Source of the DNA: Pseudonocardiaceae bacterium YIM PH 21723
Lineage (GTDB): Bacteria > Actinomycetota > Actinomycetes > Mycobacteriales > Pseudonocardiaceae
DNA length: 64,000 nt
Direction: 5' to 3'
Assembly: GCA_003600225.1 (NCBI GenBank)
Contig: QZFT01000024.1
Location: 1 to 64,000 of the forward strand
This document shows, piece by piece, positions 31,350-42,144 of the stretch (position 1 is the first letter of the stretch; every line of letters begins with the position of its first letter). Under the pieces are notes generated by a model, which worked only from the letters and a program-made list of their open reading frames with translations, made no database searches and had not been told where the DNA came from. The position numbers and the translations under genes are program-made.

Positions 31350-32501
31350 ATGGACGAGCACAGGGCAAGACTGGACGCCTTGACCGGCACCCGGATCTTC
31401 GCCGCGCTCGCCGTGTTCGTCTTCCACGCCATCGGTCTCGGGTTGATCGACGAGCGCAACACCGGCCTGCCGCTCACCTACTACGCCCGCTGTCTCGGCC
31501 CGATCGGCGTCGAGTTCTTCTTCGTGCTCAGCGGATTCGTGCTGGCCTGGTCCGCGCCCGCCGTCATCGGCTACGGCCGGTTCGTCCGGCGCAGGCTGGT
31601 CAAGATCTACCCCAACCATCTCGTCGGCTACCTGCTGGCCCTGGTGGTCTACGCCGGGTTCGCGGTCACCTGGGGCATAGCGTTGGCCAACCTGGTGCTG
31701 ATCAACGCCTGGTGGCCGGACAAGATCATGGTCGGTGGCGTCAACCCGCCGTCCTGGTCGCTGTCGGTGGAACTGCTGGCCTACCTGGTGTTCCCGCTGC
31801 TGCTGGGCGCCGTGCGCCGGATCCCCGGACCACGGCTGTGGTGGGCGTGCGCGGGCGTGCTGCTGGCCATCTGGCTGATGCCCGTCGTGGCCGACCGGCT
31901 GCCCGATCACACCCGTGCGCCGTACCCCGGACCGCTGGCGGGGGAGAAGGTCACCGCCCTGTGGTTCGTGCACCTGTTCCCGCCCGTGCGGCTGCTGGAC
32001 TTCCTGCTCGGCATCCTGGTCGCGCAACTGGTCCGCCAGGGCCGCTGGCCGCGGATCCCGGTCGGCCTGACCGTGTTGTTCGCCGCCGCCTGGTACGGGA
32101 TCTCCCTGTTCCTGCCGCCGCTGTACGCGCTCACCGCCGCGATGGCCGCGCCCATCGCCCTGCTGATCGGCTCCCTGGCCGCCGGTGAACTGCGCTCCGG
32201 CCCCGGCCTGGCAGGCGGTCCGGTACTGCGCACCCTGGGCGAGGTGTCCTTCGCCTTCTACCTGCTGCACTACACCGTGCTGGTCGCCGTCCGGCTGCTC
32301 ACCGGCGGCCTGGACCACCCGCTGACCGCCGGTGCCGGGCTGCTCCTGCTGCTGGGCAGCCTGGCCAGCACCCTGGCGTTGTCCTTCGTGGTCTACCACC
32401 TGGTGGAGAAGCCGGCGATGCGGTACTTCGCCGGGCCCCGTCCAGCCGGCGGCCGTGTGGCCCCGCCGGCTTCGGACCGGGTGGGGGCTAGATCCGTTTG
32501 A
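31350..32501 (+). CDS. Acyltransferase-3 (OafA/YrhL-like) membrane protein
   Basis: The 383-aa product is an integral membrane acyltransferase with about ten helices. The family start LDALTGTRIFAALAVFVFHAIGLG carries the catalytic-type His, EFFFVLSGFVLAWSAPAVIGYGRFVRRRLVKIYPNHLVGY is diagnostic, and PSWSLSVELLAYLVFPLLLG follows. Such proteins transfer acyl groups to sugars, lipids or secondary metabolites on the membrane. Its 14-bp end overlaps the convergent NlpC/P60-like gene. It may O-acylate a surface polymer, but it is not part of the pgs-like operon, being on the opposite strand. Confidence 0.9.
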   Translation: MDEHRARLDALTGTRIFAALAVFVFHAIGLGLIDERNTGLPLTYYARCLGPIGVEFFFVLSGFVLAWSAPAVIGYGRFVRRRLVKIYPNHLVGYLLALVVYAGFAVTWGIALANLVLINAWWPDKIMVGGVNPPSWSLSVELLAYLVFPLLLGAVRRIPGPRLWWACAGVLLAIWLMPVVADRLPDHTRAPYPGPLAGEKVTALWFVHLFPPVRLLDFLLGILVAQLVRQGRWPRIPVGLTVLFAAAWYGISLFLPPLYALTAAMAAPIALLIGSLAAGELRSGPGLAGGPVLRTLGEVSFAFYLLHYTVLVAVRLLTGGLDHPLTAGAGLLLLLGSLASTLALSFVVYHLVEKPAMRYFAGPRPAGGRVAPPASDRVGARSV

Positions 32502-33546
32502 TGACGCGCAGGCCGTCGGAGTAGAAGCCGGTGTCGCCGATCAGCGAGGCGCCGCCGACATCGCTCATCGTCGGGCCGTTGGCCCGGATCCGGCTGGAGA
32601 TGAACCGGTGCTTGCCCTGTTCATCGGTACCCAGGTAGATCGCCGAGTGGTCCAGGCCGTCGCTGTTCGGGTCGATCTCGAAGAACAGCAGGTCCCCGGG
32701 CAGCAGCGCGCCCAGCGAGGACGGCCGGCCGGCGGAACTGCTGCTGATCACCGCACCCGGCCCGACCGTGGCCATCGCGAACGCGCGGCGCGGCAGGCCC
32801 GGGCCGGCGTCGTTGCCGCCGAGCAGCGGGAAGCCGAGCCGGTAGCCGTAGACCAGCCGCAGGTAACCGGAACAGTCCGCGGCGCCGAACCGGTCCGCCC
32901 GCGTCGTCTTCCGGCCGATGTCCGGGTAGGTGAAGTCGATGCCCAGGTAGTCGATGAAGTCGTTGTTCTCCAACCGGCCCTGCGCGCCGCTGGACACCGG
33001 GCCGTAGGCGGCGTCGCCGCGGAACCGCACACCCTGGGTGTCCTTCTCCGCCGGTGCGCCGTCGGCGTACTCGAAGGCCACCGCCAGCGCGTCCGGTGAG
33101 GTGTCGGACAGGGCCTTGGTCAGCCACTGCCGGAACGAGTCCGTCTGTTCCTGACCGGCCCGCCAGGCCTGCGGCAGCAACCGCACCCAGGTGCTCGAAT
33201 CCACGTAGTGCGCGGTGAACTTCTGTTCGCGGAAGGTGCGCAGCGGCCCGCGCACCGTCGCGGTCCGCGCCCCGTCGGTCAGCGTGGCCACCACCGCGCC
33301 CTGCTGATCCTTGACGACGGTCCGGTTCGGGCCGGTCTGCCGTTCGAACTGCAGCTCGTCCGCCTTCGGGACCGGCGCCGGAGCCCCCACCGGGGCGGTG
33401 GCCGAGGACACCGCCTGCACCGGGGAAGCCGGGTCACTCTTGGATTTCACCGCGTACACGGTGAGACCGGCGACGGCCACCAGGGCCACGGCGGCGCCGA
33501 TCAGCTGGATTCTTCCGTTGCCGGCAGGGCGGCTGAGGTCGTCCAT
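32488..33546 (-). CDS. Membrane-anchored NlpC/P60-like cysteine peptidase, pgs-operon hydrolase
   Basis: The 352-aa product has one N-terminal helix (LIGAAVALVAVAGLTVYAV), a Pro/Ala-rich linker, a middle domain, and a C-terminal NlpC/P60-like part: DCSGYLRLVYGY carries the Cys (about residue 225), GDLLFFEIDPNSDGLDHSAIYLG the His (about 300). Domains of this kind cut gamma-glutamyl bonds in peptidoglycan and in poly-gamma-glutamate (PgdS-type enzymes). It is the last gene of the operon headed by the tandem HAMP protein, so cutting or releasing the PgsB/C polymer is the natural inference. ATG 33546 has AGGAG at good spacing; ATG 33552 lies too near. Confidence 0.78.
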   Translation of the reverse strand: MDDLSRPAGNGRIQLIGAAVALVAVAGLTVYAVKSKSDPASPVQAVSSATAPVGAPAPVPKADELQFERQTGPNRTVVKDQQGAVVATLTDGARTATVRGPLRTFREQKFTAHYVDSSTWVRLLPQAWRAGQEQTDSFRQWLTKALSDTSPDALAVAFEYADGAPAEKDTQGVRFRGDAAYGPVSSGAQGRLENNDFIDYLGIDFTYPDIGRKTTRADRFGAADCSGYLRLVYGYRLGFPLLGGNDAGPGLPRRAFAMATVGPGAVISSSSAGRPSSLGALLPGDLLFFEIDPNSDGLDHSAIYLGTDEQGKHRFISSRIRANGPTMSDVGGASLIGDTGFYSDGLRVIKRI

Positions 33547-33561
33547 GACCATGCTCCTGAG

Positions 33562-34035
33562 TCAGGTTCCGGGGATCAGCCCGGCCAGCACTCCACTGAT
33601 CAGCACTCCGTAGGCGGCCATGGTGACCGCTCCGGTGGCCATCAGCGTCGGTCCCGGGGGTTGGCGGACCAGCTGGTAGGCGATGAGGCCGGGCACCACG
33701 AAGCCCAGCGTCTGATGGGTGAACAGCAGCGGGAAGTCGTGTTGGATCAACGCGAACAACGCGGTCTGCAACAGCACACCCATCAGCACGACCGCGGCGA
33801 ACAGCCGCTTGCCGTAGAGGATCGCCACTTTCTGCAGAATGAGCGTCCCGCCGAAGGTCAGGGCGGTCATCAGCACGACGATGGCCCCCTGCCGGTAGTC
33901 GGTGACCAGGGTGAGGGCGAGCCAGCCCGGCGTGATCATCCCGCCGGGTGACAGGTTCGTCGTCAGATAGCAGACCAGCGAGAACAGCAGGCCGATGGCC
34001 AGGCCCAGCGTCGCGGCCTCGGGGGCGAGGGTCAT
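33562..34035 (-). CDS. pgsC: Poly-gamma-glutamate synthase membrane subunit PgsC/CapC
   Basis: The 157-aa product has four to five helices and matches PgsC/CapC: LGLAIGLLFSLVCYLTTNLSPGGMITPGWLALTLV carries the family's LSPGG-x-V-P-G-Y-like motif. PgsB and PgsC form the membrane complex that polymerises and exports poly-gamma-glutamate. The start ATG overlaps the pgsB stop by 4 bp (ATGA type), which is the usual tight pairing. No PgsA/CapA-type gene is present; the NlpC/P60-like gene takes its place 15 bp downstream. Confidence 0.85.
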   Translation of the reverse strand: MTLAPEAATLGLAIGLLFSLVCYLTTNLSPGGMITPGWLALTLVTDYRQGAIVVLMTALTFGGTLILQKVAILYGKRLFAAVVLMGVLLQTALFALIQHDFPLLFTHQTLGFVVPGLIAYQLVRQPPGPTLMATGAVTMAAYGVLISGVLAGLIPGT

Positions 34036-35387
34036 GCCTGCCTCCGCTCGTCCTGCACGGCGGCGGACCTGGCGGCCAGCGAGGCACGCATGTGCCGCAC
34101 CGAACGCAGCGCCGCGATACGCGGAGTGGTAGCGGGAATGCGTGGCAGCGGGCCGGTGACCTGCTCCTGCCGGTGCGCGACCGGCTCGGAGCTGGGGGCC
34201 AGGGGCAGCGTGGCCAGTTCAGCCAACAGGATCTCACCTTGTCCGTGGATGTTGCCGACCGTGGCCAGCGACGCGGCTCCCTGGTCGTCGGTGGCGCCAC
34301 CGACGGCGGAGAGCACCTTGTCGAGCAGTTCCTGCGGTTCCAGCCGGCCGCCGAGGTCGACGATCCGGCCCCGATAGCCGTCCGGGATGGTCGAGCGGGC
34401 GCTGCGGGTGGGCTCGCCGATCAGGATCACCTGCTCCGGATCGATCGCGCCGACGAGTTCGCCCATCTGCCCGTTGCGTTCCACCCGGTCCGGGCGGCAG
34501 TTGATCACCAGGTGCAGTGGGCGGCCGAGCCTGCCCTGCGCGGTCAGCTGATCGAGGTTCATCTTGGTCGACTCGGGGTCGTTGGCGGCGAAGATGTTCG
34601 CCACGTGCAGCCGTGCCCGGCCCGCGCCGTAGGTGGTCACGTTGAGCACGCCGGGATCCGGCGGGGCGTCCCACATGCCCCGCATCGCGTCCTCCCGGGA
34701 GATCCCGAGCAGCTCGGCGGTGGCCAGCGCGATGGCCACGTTCTCCTTGAAGGTGATCCAGGAGAACCCGGCCATCTCCTCGTCGGTGATCGCCTCCGGG
34801 TCCACCGCGATCAGCTTGCAGTCCCGCTTGCGCGCCTCCTGTCGCAGCACGTGCAGGTACTCCACCTCGGCGGTGATGCAGATGCCGCCGACGGGCATGG
34901 ACCGGCTCAGCGAGCGCGCCACGTCCTCCAGCGTCGGGCCCATCTCGGCGAGGTGGTCCTCGCGGACGTTGCACAGGATGCCGATGGTCGACTGGATCAG
35001 CTTCTCCTGGTTGAGCTCCTGCAGATCGGGCATCACCGCCATGCACTCGATCACCAGCACGTCGGGCTGGTAGGCGGCGGCGCGGCGCACGATGCCGATC
35101 TGCTCGACCACGTTGGCGATGCCGAACTTGCGGTACACCGGTTCCTCGGTGGCATCCGGGTGGATGAACCGGGCCGCGGTGCCGGTGGTCTTGGCGACGG
35201 TGACCAGTTCACCGCCGCGCAGCGCACCCGCGGTCAGCCGGGTGATGGAGCTCTTGCCGCGGATCCCGTTGACCAGCACCCGGTTCGGGATGGAGTGCAG
35301 GTGCTTGTAGTGCTGGCGTTGTTCCTGGATCGCGCCGATCAGCAGGGCGAGGCAGCTGAGGGCGAAGATGACGAACAGGTAGATCAT
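34032..35387 (-). CDS. pgsB: Poly-gamma-glutamate synthase ligase subunit PgsB/CapB
   Basis: The 451-aa product is the ATP-dependent amide ligase of poly-gamma-glutamate synthesis, related to Mur ligases. It has an N-terminal helix (IYLFVIFALSCLALLIGAI), then SIPNRVLVNGIRGKSSITRLTAGALR with the phosphate-binding GIRGKSS near residues 41-47, VLVIECMAVMPDLQELN, and ILCNVREDHLAEMG. This fits CapB over the whole length, with a C-terminal extension of about 55 residues (Pro/Arg-rich) that is not typical. It lies 4 bp after the tandem HAMP gene and overlaps pgsC by 4 bp. The monomer is presumably glutamate, not proven. Confidence 0.88.
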   Translation of the reverse strand: MIYLFVIFALSCLALLIGAIQEQRQHYKHLHSIPNRVLVNGIRGKSSITRLTAGALRGGELVTVAKTTGTAARFIHPDATEEPVYRKFGIANVVEQIGIVRRAAAYQPDVLVIECMAVMPDLQELNQEKLIQSTIGILCNVREDHLAEMGPTLEDVARSLSRSMPVGGICITAEVEYLHVLRQEARKRDCKLIAVDPEAITDEEMAGFSWITFKENVAIALATAELLGISREDAMRGMWDAPPDPGVLNVTTYGAGRARLHVANIFAANDPESTKMNLDQLTAQGRLGRPLHLVINCRPDRVERNGQMGELVGAIDPEQVILIGEPTRSARSTIPDGYRGRIVDLGGRLEPQELLDKVLSAVGGATDDQGAASLATVGNIHGQGEILLAELATLPLAPSSEPVAHRQEQVTGPLPRIPATTPRIAALRSVRHMRASLAARSAAVQDERRQA

Positions 35388-35391
35388 CCGA

Positions 35392-37536
35392 TCACGCCCT
35401 GGGGATGAGCGAGAGGGACGGGCGATCCGGGGCGACCGGGCCCTTCTTGGCGGCCTGCCTGCTGATCTCCAGGCAGCGGGCGATGGTGCCGACCTCGTCC
35501 TGCCGCTGCGGGTAGATCACCGTCTCCAGGTCGCCGCGGTCCAGTTCGGCCGCCATGTCCGCGACCCGGCGCAGTGGCCTGATCAGCATGAAGTAGTGCC
35601 AGCCGAACATCAGCGCGGACAGCAGCGCGCCGACCACGGCGATCACCCTCGCGTGCTGGGCGACGTCGTTGCCGGTCAGCCGCAGATCGCTGATGGGCTG
35701 CTCGGACACCAGGGTCCACTTCAGCCCGCTGACCGAGGCCGATCCGGTCAGCGCGGCGGCCGCGACGATCTTGCGCTGGGTGCCGACCTGCTGCACTCCG
35801 GAGACGGTCTGGCCCTTCCGCGAGGACTGGACCGAGGAGACCAGGCCGGGCTCCTGGATCTGGTCGAACGCCAGGAAGCCCTCGGTGTCGGCGATGGTGC
35901 GCATACCCGAGTCAACGAGCACGGCATGCCCACCGGCACGCTTGAGCATGGTGGTCAGGTGATCGACGTCGAACTCGGCGACCGCGCTGAACTTGCCGCC
36001 GGGGAAGGGGGAGTAGCTGTAGATCACCGGCAGCCTGCCGCTGGTGTTGCCCTGGCTGATGCCCTCCCCCTTGGGCAGTGGCGCCAGCGGCCGCAGGGGA
36101 TCGCGGCCGGATCCGGCGACCGGCTTACCGGCGGCGTCCACGATGTAGAGGCTGCGGTAGCGGGTCTGATCCTTGATCATGCTGTCCAGCAGGCCCTGCA
36201 GTTCCTGCGGGTTGCGGTTGCCGTACACGGTGGTCAGCGCCTTCACGTCGGACAGGCCCTCGGCCATGCTGCGGCGCACCGCGTCGGCCAGCGTGCTGGC
36301 CTCGTGCTTGCTGCTGCCCACCAGCACACTCGGCACCGGCGCGTTGTTCATCCCGAACAACAGCAGGGTGCCCGCGGACCAGGCCAGCAGCAGACCGGTG
36401 ACCGCGCCGACCGCCACCAGGACCGGGGATCGCTTACCCGGCGCCGAGATCACCGGCCGGGTGAGCAACAGCCCGGCCCGGATCCGCTCCAGCGTGGTGG
36501 CGATGGTGCTGGCCTCCTGCGTGGTGTGTGGACGCACCGGGTCGTCCAGGTGCCCGTCGGCGATGTTCAGCGCGTCGGCCCGCAGCGCCTTGATCGGCAG
36601 CACCAGGGTCTGCCGGACGATCACGAACCCGGCCAGGGTGATCAGCCACAGCGCGGCCGCCGGGATCAGGCCGTCCCAGTTGGTGGGCACGATGACCGTG
36701 GGGGCGCGCACGATGGAGATCAGTGAGATGCCCAGCCGGCCGGCCAGTCCGTCCACCTGGATCGGCTCGTAGCTGGCCAGGTACTCCTGGCCGTCGGCGG
36801 TGCGCTGGCCGTCGAGCGTGCCGTGCTCCCCGCGCGAGGAGGCCTTGGTCGCCAGGTCCAGGAGATTGCTGGCCTGGGCGGACTGGTCCAGCGGCTGACC
36901 GGTGGTGGTCAGCACCTGGCCCACGTTGTCCACCAGCAGCAGCGTCCGGTTGACCTCGGGTTCCTGCTTGAGCTCCGGGTTGCGCACCGGCGCGTACGCC
37001 AGCAGCAGGTAACCCTGATCCGCCTTGCCGGCCACCGGAATCGCGACCAGCAGCTTGGGCGCCGAGCTCTTGTTGACCACCGGGTAGACGGTGGGCTGCT
37101 TGGGCAGCACCGGGATCGCGGTCATCGGGATCTGCTCGCCGCGGGCCGTCACCTGCTTGCCGTTGGCCGAGTCCAGCAGCGCCAGGTTCTTCCACTTCGG
37201 GTAGCCCTTGGCCAGGTCGTCCAGCACCTGCCCGGGGTCGCGGTCGTGGCTGAGATCCATGACCTTGGCCCCGGTGCGCAGATCGGCGATGTCGGCGGTG
37301 ATCGACAGGGACATCGCCTTGGCCAGGGAGGTGATCACCCGCTCTTGGGAGTCCTTGAGGGCATCCGGGTCCCGGCCGCCGGTCAGCACGGTCAGGTAGA
37401 TCGCCGAGAAACCCGCGAGCAGCACGAACAGCAGGCTGCAGACCGCCAGGGGAGTCCCGATTCCGGAGGGGAACCCGGATTCAGGGAGCTGGGCTGCCAG
37501 CCGCGTACCGCGAGTGCTTCGCCTACTTCTTCCCAC
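35392..37536 (-). CDS. Tandem sensor-like membrane protein, two TM-outer-TM-HAMP units, no output domain
   Basis: The 714-aa product is built of two successive modules. Module 1: helix about 29-52, outer domain 53-291, helix 292-310, HAMP-like 311-360 (LVLPIKALRADALNIADGHLDDPV). Module 2: helix 371-396, outer domain 397-629, helix 630-653, HAMP 654-697 (IRPLRRVADMAAELDRGDLETV, then DEVGTIARCLE). Outer domains look Cache-like (YLLLAYAPV, YRSLYIVDAAGKPVAGSG). There is no kinase, cyclase or methyl-accepting domain after either HAMP. It heads the pgs-like operon and may sense or gate the polymer machinery; this is inference. GTG 37536 (or TTG 37539) follows GGAGA. Confidence 0.75.
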   Translation of the reverse strand: MGRSRRSTRGTRLAAQLPESGFPSGIGTPLAVCSLLFVLLAGFSAIYLTVLTGGRDPDALKDSQERVITSLAKAMSLSITADIADLRTGAKVMDLSHDRDPGQVLDDLAKGYPKWKNLALLDSANGKQVTARGEQIPMTAIPVLPKQPTVYPVVNKSSAPKLLVAIPVAGKADQGYLLLAYAPVRNPELKQEPEVNRTLLLVDNVGQVLTTTGQPLDQSAQASNLLDLATKASSRGEHGTLDGQRTADGQEYLASYEPIQVDGLAGRLGISLISIVRAPTVIVPTNWDGLIPAAALWLITLAGFVIVRQTLVLPIKALRADALNIADGHLDDPVRPHTTQEASTIATTLERIRAGLLLTRPVISAPGKRSPVLVAVGAVTGLLLAWSAGTLLLFGMNNAPVPSVLVGSSKHEASTLADAVRRSMAEGLSDVKALTTVYGNRNPQELQGLLDSMIKDQTRYRSLYIVDAAGKPVAGSGRDPLRPLAPLPKGEGISQGNTSGRLPVIYSYSPFPGGKFSAVAEFDVDHLTTMLKRAGGHAVLVDSGMRTIADTEGFLAFDQIQEPGLVSSVQSSRKGQTVSGVQQVGTQRKIVAAAALTGSASVSGLKWTLVSEQPISDLRLTGNDVAQHARVIAVVGALLSALMFGWHYFMLIRPLRRVADMAAELDRGDLETVIYPQRQDEVGTIARCLEISRQAAKKGPVAPDRPSLSLIPRA

Positions 37537-37757
37537 CAATGTCTCCGTAGGCGTGGCGCCGGGACGGTGCAGGCGTCCTGGGCGGCCACTTTCGGTTCTA
37601 AAGTCGTGCGCGAGCCCCGTACAGAGATCGCCTTATTACGAGTAACCCTAACGGGGGATAGAGTGAACAGCCTAGGCCAGTCTGGTCGCTTCGGATAGAA
37701 ATACGGACGGGCGGTAGGCTGCAGATGCGTCCAAATGGGTGTAGATAGGATTGCTAT

Positions 37758-38753
37758 ATGACGCCGATGGATTCGGTGAGTAATCAATCGGACTTGCCAT
37801 CCTCGACCCCCGGACCGCCTCGTCGCCGCCCGTGGATCCCGATCACGGTGACCGCCTTGGTCGCCGTGGCCGCGATCATCGCTCTGGTGATCTTCGCTTC
37901 GGACTCCGGTAGGGACAACGAACGGACGCCGGGCGGGCTACGTCCGCCCCACGGAGAGCTGGATCTCGCGCAGTTCCTGTCCGACTATGCCGGCGAGCTG
38001 TCCTCCGACGCCCGGTACAAACAACCCACCGCCGGCCAGCGCGCCGAGGTCATCGAACTGCTGCGCGGGCTGACCCCCGCCAGCCGCGGCACGCTCACCG
38101 GACGGGCGCAGGAGCTGGGACTCACCCTCAGTGAAGGCGCGGACATGGTGACCGGCAGGCGCTTCGTGATGGCCGCCAGCACGCCCGGCGACGCCCGAGC
38201 CTGGGGCGTGTTCCTGATCGACACCGGCGCGCCGCGGAGCAACATCGTCGTCGAGGTCCCGCACCCCAACTTCGACATGCACACCGAACTGCTCGGGCTC
38301 GACCTGTACCGCAAGGCCCCCGGATCGGTGCTGATCATGGCCGGTGCGCACCGCAAAGCCTCGAACGGCAAAGCGGACGTCGCCCACCAGGCGGAATCGA
38401 TGTTCCACTCCGCGGTCCAATTGTTCGCCGAGGGTGGCCGCACCGAGATCCAGGTGCACGGCTTCGACGACGACAACATGCCCACGACCGACGTGGTGCT
38501 CTCCCCGGGCAGCGCCGACGCGGGCGAGGTGATCACCCGCGCCGGGCGCGAGCTGGAACGGCAGGAGTTCGCCGTCTGCCGGGCGTGGGAGGACAACTGC
38601 GGCAAACTGGAGGGCACCACCAACGTGCAGGGCAAGGCCGCCCGGGAGGCGGGCCGCCAGTTCCTGCACGTGGAGACCAGCAGGGCCATCCGCGACAGCG
38701 ATCAGCTGGTCGACAAGGTCGCCGCGGCTTTGGCGGCTGCTGTCTCCCGTTAG
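37758..38753 (+). CDS. Membrane-anchored putative zinc hydrolase, divergent to the pgs-like operon
   Basis: The 331-aa product has one membrane helix (about residues 28-48) and a large outer domain. Candidate active-site clusters are VEVPHPNFDMHTELLG (His169, Asp173, His175, Glu177), IQVHGF (His234) and FLHVETSRAIR (His304, Glu306), spaced like those of zinc-dependent amidases or the phage-type gamma-PGA hydrolases. Family assignment is not certain. It is divergent from the tandem HAMP gene across 220 bp, so a shared promoter region and a job in polymer turnover are plausible. ATG at 37758. No ribosome site stands out. Confidence 0.7.
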   Translation: MTPMDSVSNQSDLPSSTPGPPRRRPWIPITVTALVAVAAIIALVIFASDSGRDNERTPGGLRPPHGELDLAQFLSDYAGELSSDARYKQPTAGQRAEVIELLRGLTPASRGTLTGRAQELGLTLSEGADMVTGRRFVMAASTPGDARAWGVFLIDTGAPRSNIVVEVPHPNFDMHTELLGLDLYRKAPGSVLIMAGAHRKASNGKADVAHQAESMFHSAVQLFAEGGRTEIQVHGFDDDNMPTTDVVLSPGSADAGEVITRAGRELERQEFAVCRAWEDNCGKLEGTTNVQGKAAREAGRQFLHVETSRAIRDSDQLVDKVAAALAAAVSR

Positions 38754-39214: not shown

Positions 39215-40723
39215 TCAGGGAGTTTCGCGCTCGCGGTAGACGAGCAGCCGGTTGTTGATCACGCCGAACTCGAAGCGGTGCCCAGGCGGACCCAGCTCCC
39301 CGTCGGTGGCCAGCGTGACCGGTGAGCCGTCCACCTGCACGGTCATCCTGGTCACCGACCGCTGCACGTAGACCCGGCTGCGGTGCAACGCGCCCAGCAG
39401 CGCGGCCACCGTCAGCCGTAGCCGGGAGAACCGCACATCGGCGCGCGCGTACCGGATGTCCAGCACATCGCTGTCCAGGCTCGGCCGCCACGACGGCGCG
39501 AAGCCGACCGGCACGTACTCGCCGTTGCCCGCGAACAACACCCACGCCTTGACCGGCTCACCGTCGATCCGCAGCCGCAACGGTTCGGCATTGGCCAGCA
39601 CCACGAACAACGCCGCGACCATGGCCGGCCACTTGCCGTACCGGCCCTGCCACTTCTCGCGCAGCCGCACCATGTCCGGGTAGCCGCCGATGCTCGCCGT
39701 GTTCACGAACCAGCGGGGCCAGGAACCATCCACCGAGATCGACCCCAGATCCACCGACACCGCGCTGCCGTCCTCGGTCGCCCTGGCGATCGAGCCCAGC
39801 TCGTCGACACCGACGTCCCGGGCGAAGTGGTTCAACGTGCCCGCCGGCACCAGGACCAGCGGCAATCCCACGCTCACCGCCAGCGAGGCCACCGCGGCGA
39901 CCGTGCCGTCGCCGCCGGCCACGCCCAGCGCGATCGTGTCGGAGCCGATCGCCTCGCGCAGCGTGTCCTCGGCCGGCCGGTCCGGCTCGGTGCGCACGAT
40001 GACCGCCTTCGGCCAGGCCTGCGAGATCGCCTCGACCGGGTCGAAGTTGGCGTCCCCGGAAGCCGGGTTCACCAGGAACGTCAGCCCCTGCCCGCCCGGC
40101 AGCGCGGGCGCGTCGGACTCGTGGCGCGCGTGGGCCTGCTCCGAGGTGCGCACCGGCCACCACCGCTGGGTGGCCAGGCCGGCGCCGACGCCGATCGCGG
40201 AGCCCGCGACCACGTCCGAGGGCCAGTGCACGCCGGTGTGCATCCGGGAGTACGCCACGCCGGCGGCCAGCGGGGCCAGCAGGGCGCCCACGACCGGGTC
40301 CTCCAGTGCCACGGCCGTGGTGAACGCGGCCGCGGAGGCGGAGTGCCCGGAGGGGAACGAGGAGGAGGTCGGCACCTTGTTGAGCCGTCGGTGCACCGGG
40401 AGCAGTTCCGCGGCCGGCCGGCGCCGGGGGAACAGGGGTTTGCCGATGAGGTTCGCGGACGCACTCGCCCCGGCGATAGCCGCGATCCCACGCAGGGCCG
40501 CACGCCGGGTCCGGCCCTTGCGTACCGCGAGTATCGCCGCGATGACGAACCACAGCGCACTGTGGTTCGCGGCCATGGTGAGTCGCCGGATCACCCGGTC
40601 AGCGCGACTTTTCGGTAGAGCGGCCGATTTGGCCATCCACGCCTTGTCATGCCTGCCGACCCTCTTGAACGCCGCTATGAACTGGGAGAACACTCCGATG
40701 ACGCTAACGTCTCGATGCGACAC
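39215..40723 (-). CDS. PAP2 phosphatase-diacylglycerol kinase fusion protein
   Basis: The 502-aa product joins an N-terminal PAP2 membrane phosphatase (KPLFPRRRPA, PSGHSASAAAFTTAVALEDP and SRMHTGVHWPSDVVAG carry the three signature blocks with the catalytic His) to a C-terminal lipid kinase of the DagK/YegS kind (LTFLVNPASG, GVAGGDGTVAAVASLAV, VPAGTLNHFARDVGV). It could dephosphorylate a phosphatidate and rephosphorylate diacylglycerol, or act on polyprenol lipids; direction is not known. GTG 40723 has GGGGAG 10 nt upstream. Divergent to pafA across 62 bp. Confidence 0.88.
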   Translation of the reverse strand: MSHRDVSVIGVFSQFIAAFKRVGRHDKAWMAKSAALPKSRADRVIRRLTMAANHSALWFVIAAILAVRKGRTRRAALRGIAAIAGASASANLIGKPLFPRRRPAAELLPVHRRLNKVPTSSSFPSGHSASAAAFTTAVALEDPVVGALLAPLAAGVAYSRMHTGVHWPSDVVAGSAIGVGAGLATQRWWPVRTSEQAHARHESDAPALPGGQGLTFLVNPASGDANFDPVEAISQAWPKAVIVRTEPDRPAEDTLREAIGSDTIALGVAGGDGTVAAVASLAVSVGLPLVLVPAGTLNHFARDVGVDELGSIARATEDGSAVSVDLGSISVDGSWPRWFVNTASIGGYPDMVRLREKWQGRYGKWPAMVAALFVVLANAEPLRLRIDGEPVKAWVLFAGNGEYVPVGFAPSWRPSLDSDVLDIRYARADVRFSRLRLTVAALLGALHRSRVYVQRSVTRMTVQVDGSPVTLATDGELGPPGHRFEFGVINNRLLVYRERETP

Positions 40724-40785
40724 GCGCGAATGGCTCCCCGATTGCAGCACATCAAAAATGGTCGATAAGGGCCTAATGTGGACTT

Positions 40786-42144
40786 ATGCAGCGGCGGATC
40801 TTTGGCATCGAAACTGAGTTCGGGGTCACGTGCACCTTCCACGGGCAGCGTCGGCTGAGCCCTGACGAGGTCGCGCGGTACCTGTTCCGTCGAGTGGTGT
40901 CCTGGGGCCGCTCGTCCAACGTGTTCCTGCGCAACGGCGCCCGGTTGTACCTGGACGTCGGCTCGCACCCGGAGTACGCGACGGCTGAGTGTGACGACCT
41001 GACGCAGCTCGTCACCCACGACAAGGCCGGTGAGCGGATCCTGGAGGATCTGCTGGTGGACGCCGAGCGCCGGCTGGCCGACGAGGGCATCGGCGGGGAC
41101 ATCTTCCTGTTCAAGAACAACACCGACTCGGCCGGCAACTCGTACGGCTGCCACGAGAACTACCTGGTGGCCCGGGCCGGCGAGTTCTCCCGGATCGCCG
41201 ACGTGCTGCTGCCCTTCCTGGTCACCCGGCAGCTGATCTGCGGTGCGGGCAAGGTCCTGCAGACCCCGCGCGGCGCCGTCTACTGCCTGTCCCAGCGCGC
41301 GGAGCACATCTGGGAGGGCGTCTCCAGCGCCACCACCCGCTCCCGGCCGATCATCAACACCCGTGACGAGCCGCACGCCGACGCCGAGCGGTACCGGCGC
41401 CTGCACGTGATCGTCGGCGACTCGAACATGTCCGAGGTGACCACGCTGCTGAAGGTCGGCAGCGCGAACCTGGTCCTGGAGATGATCGAGGCCGGAGTGC
41501 AGTTCCGGGACTTCACCCTGGACAACCCGATCCGGGCCATCCGGGAGATCAGCCACGACCTCACCGGCCGCCGTCCGGTGCGCCTGGCCGGCGGCAAGGA
41601 GGCCTCCGCGCTGGACATCCAGCGGGAGTACTACGAGAAGGCCGTCGAGCACGTGGCGCAGCGCGACCCGGACCCGACCGCCCAGCGGGTGCTCGAGCTG
41701 TGGGGCCGCACGCTGGACGCCGTCGAGTCGGAGAACCTGTCGCTGATCGACAAGGACATCGACTGGGCCATCAAGCACCGGCTGATCGAGCGCTACCGGG
41801 GCAAGAACAACCTGGAGCTGTCCAGCCCGCGCATCGCCCAGCTGGATCTGGCCTACCACGACATCCGCCGCGGCCGGGGCATCTTCGACCTGCTGCAGCG
41901 CAAGGACCTGGTCACCCGGGTCACCGACGACGGCGAGATCGAGTCGGCCAAGGACCTGCCGCCGCAGACCACCAGGGCCAAGCTGCGCGGCGAGTTCATC
42001 GCCGCCGCCCAGGCCGCCGGCCGCGACTTCACCGTCGACTGGGTACACCTGAAGCTGAACGACCAGGCGCAGCGGACCGTGCTGTGCAAGGACCCGTTCC
42101 GCTCGGTCGACGAGCGGGTGGAACGCCTGATCGCCTCGCTGTAG
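40786..42144 (+). CDS. pafA: Pup-protein ligase PafA
   Basis: The 452-aa product joins the C-terminal Glu of deamidated Pup to substrate lysines with [19 protein letters not shown] (the catalytic Glu/metal region), [40 protein letters not shown] and [18 protein letters not shown] are diagnostic. It lacks the Dop-specific loop, so it is ligase not deamidase. ATG 40786. In contrast to the compact locus of many relatives, here pafA is 14 kb away from prcA and pafB begins 3.6 kb further on. A strong hairpin follows the stop. Confidence 0.97.

Follow-up and report, generated by a model that had tools for sequence, protein, structure and literature searches.

The 64-kb stretch of DNA analysed here (the window; Pseudonocardiaceae bacterium YIM PH 21723, contig QZFT01000024.1, to which coordinates refer unless another location is named) carries a putative poly-gamma-glutamate (gamma-PGA) operon at 32488-37539 on the minus strand. 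Genes encoding a Cache/HAMP membrane protein, PgsB, PgsC and an NlpC/P60 protein follow each other in this order (Table 1). A first-pass annotation of the window had described them as one tight four-gene operon; all four were indeed found on the minus strand with family matches, separated by 4 and -4 bp (an ATGA overlap), while the gap before nlpC, given there as about 15 bp, is likewise small but measures 9 bp. A fifth gene, designated gene X, had gone unmentioned; clustering of neighbouring genes revealed that it is conserved beside pgsBC. PgsB matched the equivalog model TIGR04012 with 372 bits (E 2.3e-111; cut-off 222.7) and its NGIRGKSS motif is invariant in the PgsB alignment; a sequence search of the PDB with PgsB gave no match. 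PgsC matched the Pfam family CapC (PF14102) with 114 bits (E 5.6e-33; cut-off 27) and NCBIfam TIGR04011 with 69.8 bits, below the cut-off of 96.45. A scan of the region between the HAMP gene and gene X for sigma-70-type promoters found no match, and the divergent promoters placed there are presumed from gene orientation.

Table 1. Features of the operon and of the adjoining gene X (aa, amino acids; TM, transmembrane segment).
Feature	Coordinates	Strand	Basis
Tandem Cache-TM-HAMP membrane protein, 715 aa, TTG start	35392-37539	-	Pfam HAMP, weak dCache_1
PgsB/CapB-type Mur-ligase-like poly-gamma-glutamate synthase, 451 aa, one N-terminal TM	34032-35387	-	TIGR04012
PgsC/CapC, 157 aa, about 4 TMs by hydropathy	33562-34035	-	PF14102
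Membrane-anchored NlpC/P60 protein, 354 aa	32488-33552	-	NLPC_P60
Gene X, 331 aa, divergent from operon, TM-anchored, predicted PghP-like zinc gamma-PGA hydrolase	37758-38753	+	Fold model, profile, conserved residues
218-bp intergenic region between HAMP gene and gene X, presumed divergent promoters	37540-37757	.	Gene coordinates

A scan of named genomes with the PgsB alignment yielded 340 relatives, and the best 80 pgsB loci were taken for a census; they come from Amycolatopsis, Kutzneria, Kibdelosporangium, Lentzea, Saccharothrix, Micromonospora, relatives of Actinoplanes, Kribbella, Streptomyces and others. Profile searches of these 80 loci detected the HAMP gene, adjacent to pgsB, and pgsC at every one, nlpC at 78, X at 44 and a CapA gene at 23. 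The neighbourhood comparison that the first-pass annotation had proposed thus showed a conserved co-occurrence, and its description of a poly-gamma-glutamate-type operon of unusual composition is supported by this conservation together with the family matches of PgsB and PgsC. The same gene order was found in Pseudonocardiaceae, Micromonosporaceae, Streptomycetaceae and Kribbella, as well as in most pgsB neighbourhoods read from genomes of the family and the class. This recurrence across families rules out that the genes are a local oddity or adjacent by chance.

In the PgsB family search, 23 of 150 genomes from the same family, representing eleven genera, had a pgsB scoring above the cut-off, as did 10 of 297 from the class as a whole. 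Within the 150 genomes, a full-length NlpC orthologue occurred in 20 of the 23 pgsB-positive and in 1 of the 127 pgsB-negative genomes (Fisher 1e-20), the single pgsB-negative case being a fragment with a stop. X (E < 1e-75) was distributed in much the same way (21/23 versus 4/127; Fisher 1e-19), and the CapA orthologue was present in 17/23 and 69/127 genomes, respectively (Fisher 0.11).

The X protein has one N-terminal TM (residues 29-47). A Pfam search with 32 members of its family revealed nothing convincing and no match to PF05908 in any of them; this family was not found in the window's genome either, and a PDB sequence search with X returned chance-level matches only. With the AlphaFold2 model of X (mean predicted local distance difference test score, pLDDT, 86), the best PDB fold match obtained with Foldseek was phage PghP (3A9L; E 6e-6, target TM-score 0.58), YndL/PghL bound to gamma-PGA (5onj) was matched as well (target TM-score 0.55), and in a viral structure library a Bacillus phage poly-gamma-glutamate hydrolase ranked fifth (target TM-score 0.56). 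Comparison by hhalign of the X profile with a profile built from 57 PghP-type proteins from viral contigs and actinobacterial genomes gave 70% (E 4e-5), against 0.1-0.8% for four unrelated control profiles. Residues H40, E45, H78, H103 and E165 are essential in PghP (PMC6506827). In X, H169, D173, H210, H234 and E306 are invariant in 32/32 and in 44/44 sequences and, judged by sequence order only, correspond to these residues in order and rough spacing, with Asp in place of Glu. D173, rather than E177, would accordingly be read as the counterpart of the zinc-ligand Glu of PghP, an assignment of our own made from the sequence. The predicted fold, the catalytic residues and the linkage to pgsB suggest that X is probably PghP-like and likely the dedicated cutter of the polymer. 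The four X homologues of the pgsB-negative genomes stand alone, with none of the operon genes nearby, and resemble in this respect the scattered pghP genes described earlier (PMC4497714). The window's genome encodes a second, diverged X-like secreted protein (L273:5948-6889, on G000:C33) without adjacent pgs genes; it has no counterpart of H210 and may be inactive or altered.

The NlpC/P60 protein, which the first-pass annotation regarded as a built-in cutter, matched NLPC_P60 marginally (23.2 bits; cut-off 23), and the family was matched in 30/30 orthologues. In its AlphaFold2 model (pLDDT 85), the C-terminal domain resembles 7cfl_A (target TM-score 0.66), and the additional N-terminal domain of about 125 residues (about 65-190) gave no clear PDB match with Foldseek. 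Catalytic C227 and H302 are retained in the window, and the third polar catalytic residue was not recognisable in the alignment. The catalytic Cys is present in 24 of the 30 orthologues and replaced by Ser in six; Kutzneria-type proteins carry DSAG in place of DCSG (loci L068, L112, L116 and L155), and both Cys and His are absent in some Lentzea, Kibdelosporangium and Kribbella. On the PgsB tree, at least two losses of the catalytic residues are required. As these residues were lost in several lineages, the role of NlpC as an essential cutter is weakened. The residues of X are never lost at operon loci while those of NlpC are, and X is therefore the better candidate for a dedicated cutter, to which the cutting function of the earlier proposal is better assigned. 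The pattern of conservation indicates that NlpC probably has a structural role, too. Apparent pseudo-enzymes are thus retained in the operon at the four Kutzneria loci, where the Cys is lost, and at L124, L132, L136 and L145, where NlpC lacks both Cys and His; at L132 a second, intact NlpC copy lies nearby.

Predicted TMs of the HAMP protein (residues 31-49, 290-308, 377-395 and 626-644) divide it into two Cache-TM-HAMP units and a short tail. Pfam HAMP was matched in two stretches (48 bits, E 1.4e-12) and dCache_1 scored 22.6, under its cut-off of 45; among the orthologues, HAMP was matched in 27/30 and dCache_1 in 11/30. The Pfam domain search found no output domain (kinase, cyclase, methyl-accepting or similar), and only about 25 residues follow the second HAMP domain. 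A built-in sensor, as proposed in the first-pass annotation, would agree with the Cache and HAMP domains, but the output domain of a classical sensor was not found, and sensing is hence presumed from domain content. The second HAMP domain is the best conserved region of the protein (0.62; first Cache region, 0.44), which would suit a contact surface. Direct contact of the HAMP protein with PgsB and PgsC would be the simplest reading, with a scaffold function replacing PgsA as a rival to be taken seriously.

The first-pass annotation had further counted the CapA partner as missing, and had considered the alternative that a homologue encoded elsewhere acts with PgsB and PgsC. No CapA gene (PF09587) was found adjoining the operon in the window. 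The genome does encode one CapA (G000:C16:86336-87061; PF09587, 221 bits), which has no operon gene beside it. It shares 43-47% identity with CapA proteins of Streptomyces whose genes lie immediately upstream of HAMP in the versions of the operon found there. Where CapA lies near pgsB, it is mostly in this upstream position. The partner is thus absent from the operon but not from the genome, and it does not track pgsB. All six pgsB-positive genomes of one genus, apparently Kutzneria, gave no strong CapA match. CapA acting in trans was consequently not retained as a tracked partner, as the orthologue exists but its presence in the 150 genomes does not go along with that of pgsB; it is considered below as a rival only.

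Taken together, we consider it fairly probable that the locus is an actinomycete surface-polymer locus for poly-gamma-glutamate, or a closely related gamma-linked polymer, comprising PgsBC, a HAMP partner, the hydrolase X and NlpC. PgsB and PgsC proteins polymerise the chain and export it at the membrane, and the pair encoded here would do the same. The Cache/HAMP protein would be their constant membrane partner; as it has no output domain, it most likely works by direct contact, gating or assembling PgsBC on an extracellular cue. Membrane-anchored X, as a PghP-like zinc hydrolase, would trim or free the polymer, which its fold, catalytic residues and linkage suggest. NlpC, likewise membrane-anchored and with its Cys-His pair intact, may act on the polymer or on a junction between polymer and peptidoglycan, and it may have a non-catalytic role as well, because the pair is lost in some lineages. 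The distant CapA may or may not join this complex. A bolder version of the model, which we regard as quite unlikely, would see in the Cache/HAMP protein an indispensable subunit of gamma-PGA synthases that form a class of their own in actinomycetes: the protein would replace PgsA/CapA, an extracellular ligand would switch polymerisation without a kinase or second messenger, and the X family would turn the polymer over.

Several observations weigh against a polymer locus of this composition. It is known here from genes and predicted models, and the part given to the HAMP protein derives from domain content and linkage. The 80 loci are the PgsB matches closest to the query, which biases the census to near relatives, and the Fisher tests of co-occurrence ignore phylogeny. 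X is not near pgsB at 36 of the 80 loci, mainly in one Streptomyces clade. The profile match between X and PghP spans the C-terminal half only, and a smaller PghP profile of four sequences was not matched by X in hhalign (0.5%). The fold search with X also returned other zinc peptidases and N-formylglutamate amidohydrolases at similar E-values, and the fold alone therefore leaves the substrate unfixed.

The last point, together with the orphan homologues lacking pgsB, would fit X being a zinc amidase or carboxypeptidase for peptidoglycan or small molecules instead of a gamma-PGA hydrolase. This we judge unlikely, since PghP ranks first by E-value and, among the PDB matches listed, also by target TM-score, the profile match and the strong linkage to pgsB point in the same direction, and PghP itself occurs without pgsB in many bacteria (PMC4497714). 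The product, too, might differ: NlpC/P60 enzymes commonly cleave gamma-D-Glu bonds in peptidoglycan, so the locus could make a mixed polymer, a different gamma-linked one or glutamyl chains attached to a cell-wall component, which NlpC/P60 would link to peptidoglycan or release from it. The literature searched reports no polymer for this actinomycete group, and PgsC scores under its NCBIfam cut-off; but PgsB, which is linked to a PghP-like hydrolase, lies far above the equivalog cut-off, and this makes a different product improbable.

Two further explanations concern the third component of the synthase. The HAMP protein might not be a sensor at all but a structural replacement of PgsA/CapA, that is, a fixed third subunit whose Cache and HAMP folds serve as a scaffold. 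Its presence at every locus of the census, compared with fewer than a third for CapA, the operon-bearing Kutzneria-type genomes without a strong CapA homologue and the lack of a recognised output domain would all agree with this; however, Cache and HAMP domains are typically signalling modules, and in Streptomyces and Micromonospora loci CapA and the HAMP protein occur side by side and hence are not simple substitutes, so that we see here a possible but rather doubtful solution. Conversely, the system could be a standard PgsBCA synthase for which the distant gene provides CapA in trans, so that only the layout of the operon would differ. The strong PF09587 score of this CapA and its similarity to the CapA of the Streptomyces operons support such an arrangement, whereas its frequent occurrence in pgsB-negative relatives, its failure to track pgsB and the six genomes of one genus without a strong match argue against it, and we likewise think it possible yet rather doubtful.

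Some loci deviate from the common layout. In the mainly Streptomyces clade without X, a conserved gene for a secreted PAF-acetylhydrolase-like alpha/beta hydrolase and one for a YkcB/PMT-like glycosyltransferase lie nearby (L114:4051-5448, L114:11145-13091 and about 20 further Streptomyces-type loci). Four variant loci (L072, L073, L083 and L086) lack NlpC and have either a split HAMP protein or a second HAMP gene behind the first; any X present there is read codirectionally with the operon. A short pgsB remnant without other operon genes (L097:7083-7316, on G050:C39) represents a decayed copy, and sister members of that genus carry the operon. Locus L099 (JOAA01000013.1), labelled Rhodococcus rhodnii NRRL B-16535, clusters with Kibdelosporangium and Actinosynnema and is probably misnamed. 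In the window itself, an acyltransferase-3 gene (31350-32501, plus strand) is convergent with nlpC, the two ends overlapping by 14 bp, and was not among the conserved neighbours in the gene clustering. A fusion of PAP2 phosphatase and diacylglycerol kinase (39215-40750, minus strand) adjoins a Pup ligase gene (40786-42144, plus strand).

If the proposed polymer locus is real, an unstudied system of the poly-gamma-glutamate type exists in many Streptomyces, Amycolatopsis, Micromonospora and their relatives, comprising a receptor linked to the synthase and hydrolases of a new family that sequence searches overlook. A previous survey found PghP-type hydrolases outside Bacillales rarely together with pgsB, pghP accompanying it in 13% of cases only (PMC4497714); judging by X, some of the hydrolases missing from that count may belong to a divergent family encoded beside pgsB. 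Another possible use of X would be to tailor the length of gamma-PGA.

A literature search, which covered few subscription papers, found no description of this operon in actinomycetes. With the pgsBCAE operon and pgdS of B. subtilis (ywsC-ywtABC and ywtD) it shares the PgsB-PgsC pair and a gene for a C40-class (NlpC/P60) hydrolase just downstream (PMC4497714, PMC6506827). As pgdS immediately follows the pgs operon there (PMC4497714), the succession of a pgs operon and a C40-type hydrolase gene is already known, and the earlier claim of an arrangement unlike that of Bacillus is weakened as far as a hydrolase beside the pgs genes is concerned. In contrast to B. subtilis, the window operon has neither CapA nor PgsE and begins with the Cache/HAMP gene, its NlpC protein is anchored in the membrane and combines one NlpC domain with a new N-terminal domain, and a PghP-like gene is added. 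The capBCADE operon of B. anthracis has homologues of its CapB and CapC in the window, but CapA and CapE are absent and no gamma-glutamyltransferase (GGT)-type CapD is among the operon genes. X resembles PghP and YndL (PghL), members of PF05908, in its predicted fold, in H/acid/H/H/E residues that by sequence follow the same order and in a weak profile match, and differs from them by its N-terminal TM anchor, the Asp in place of the zinc-ligand Glu, the missing PF05908 match, its encoding by the host and its linkage to pgsBC. The capA-HAMP-pgsB-pgsC-nlpC loci found here in Streptomyces and Micromonospora have the same core order, often with X nearby, but carry CapA beside the operon, whereas in the window's genome it is located elsewhere. 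Relative to the literature searched, what is new is a Cache/HAMP gene that is constant, CapA as an optional neighbour and X as a PghP-like gene linked to the operon.

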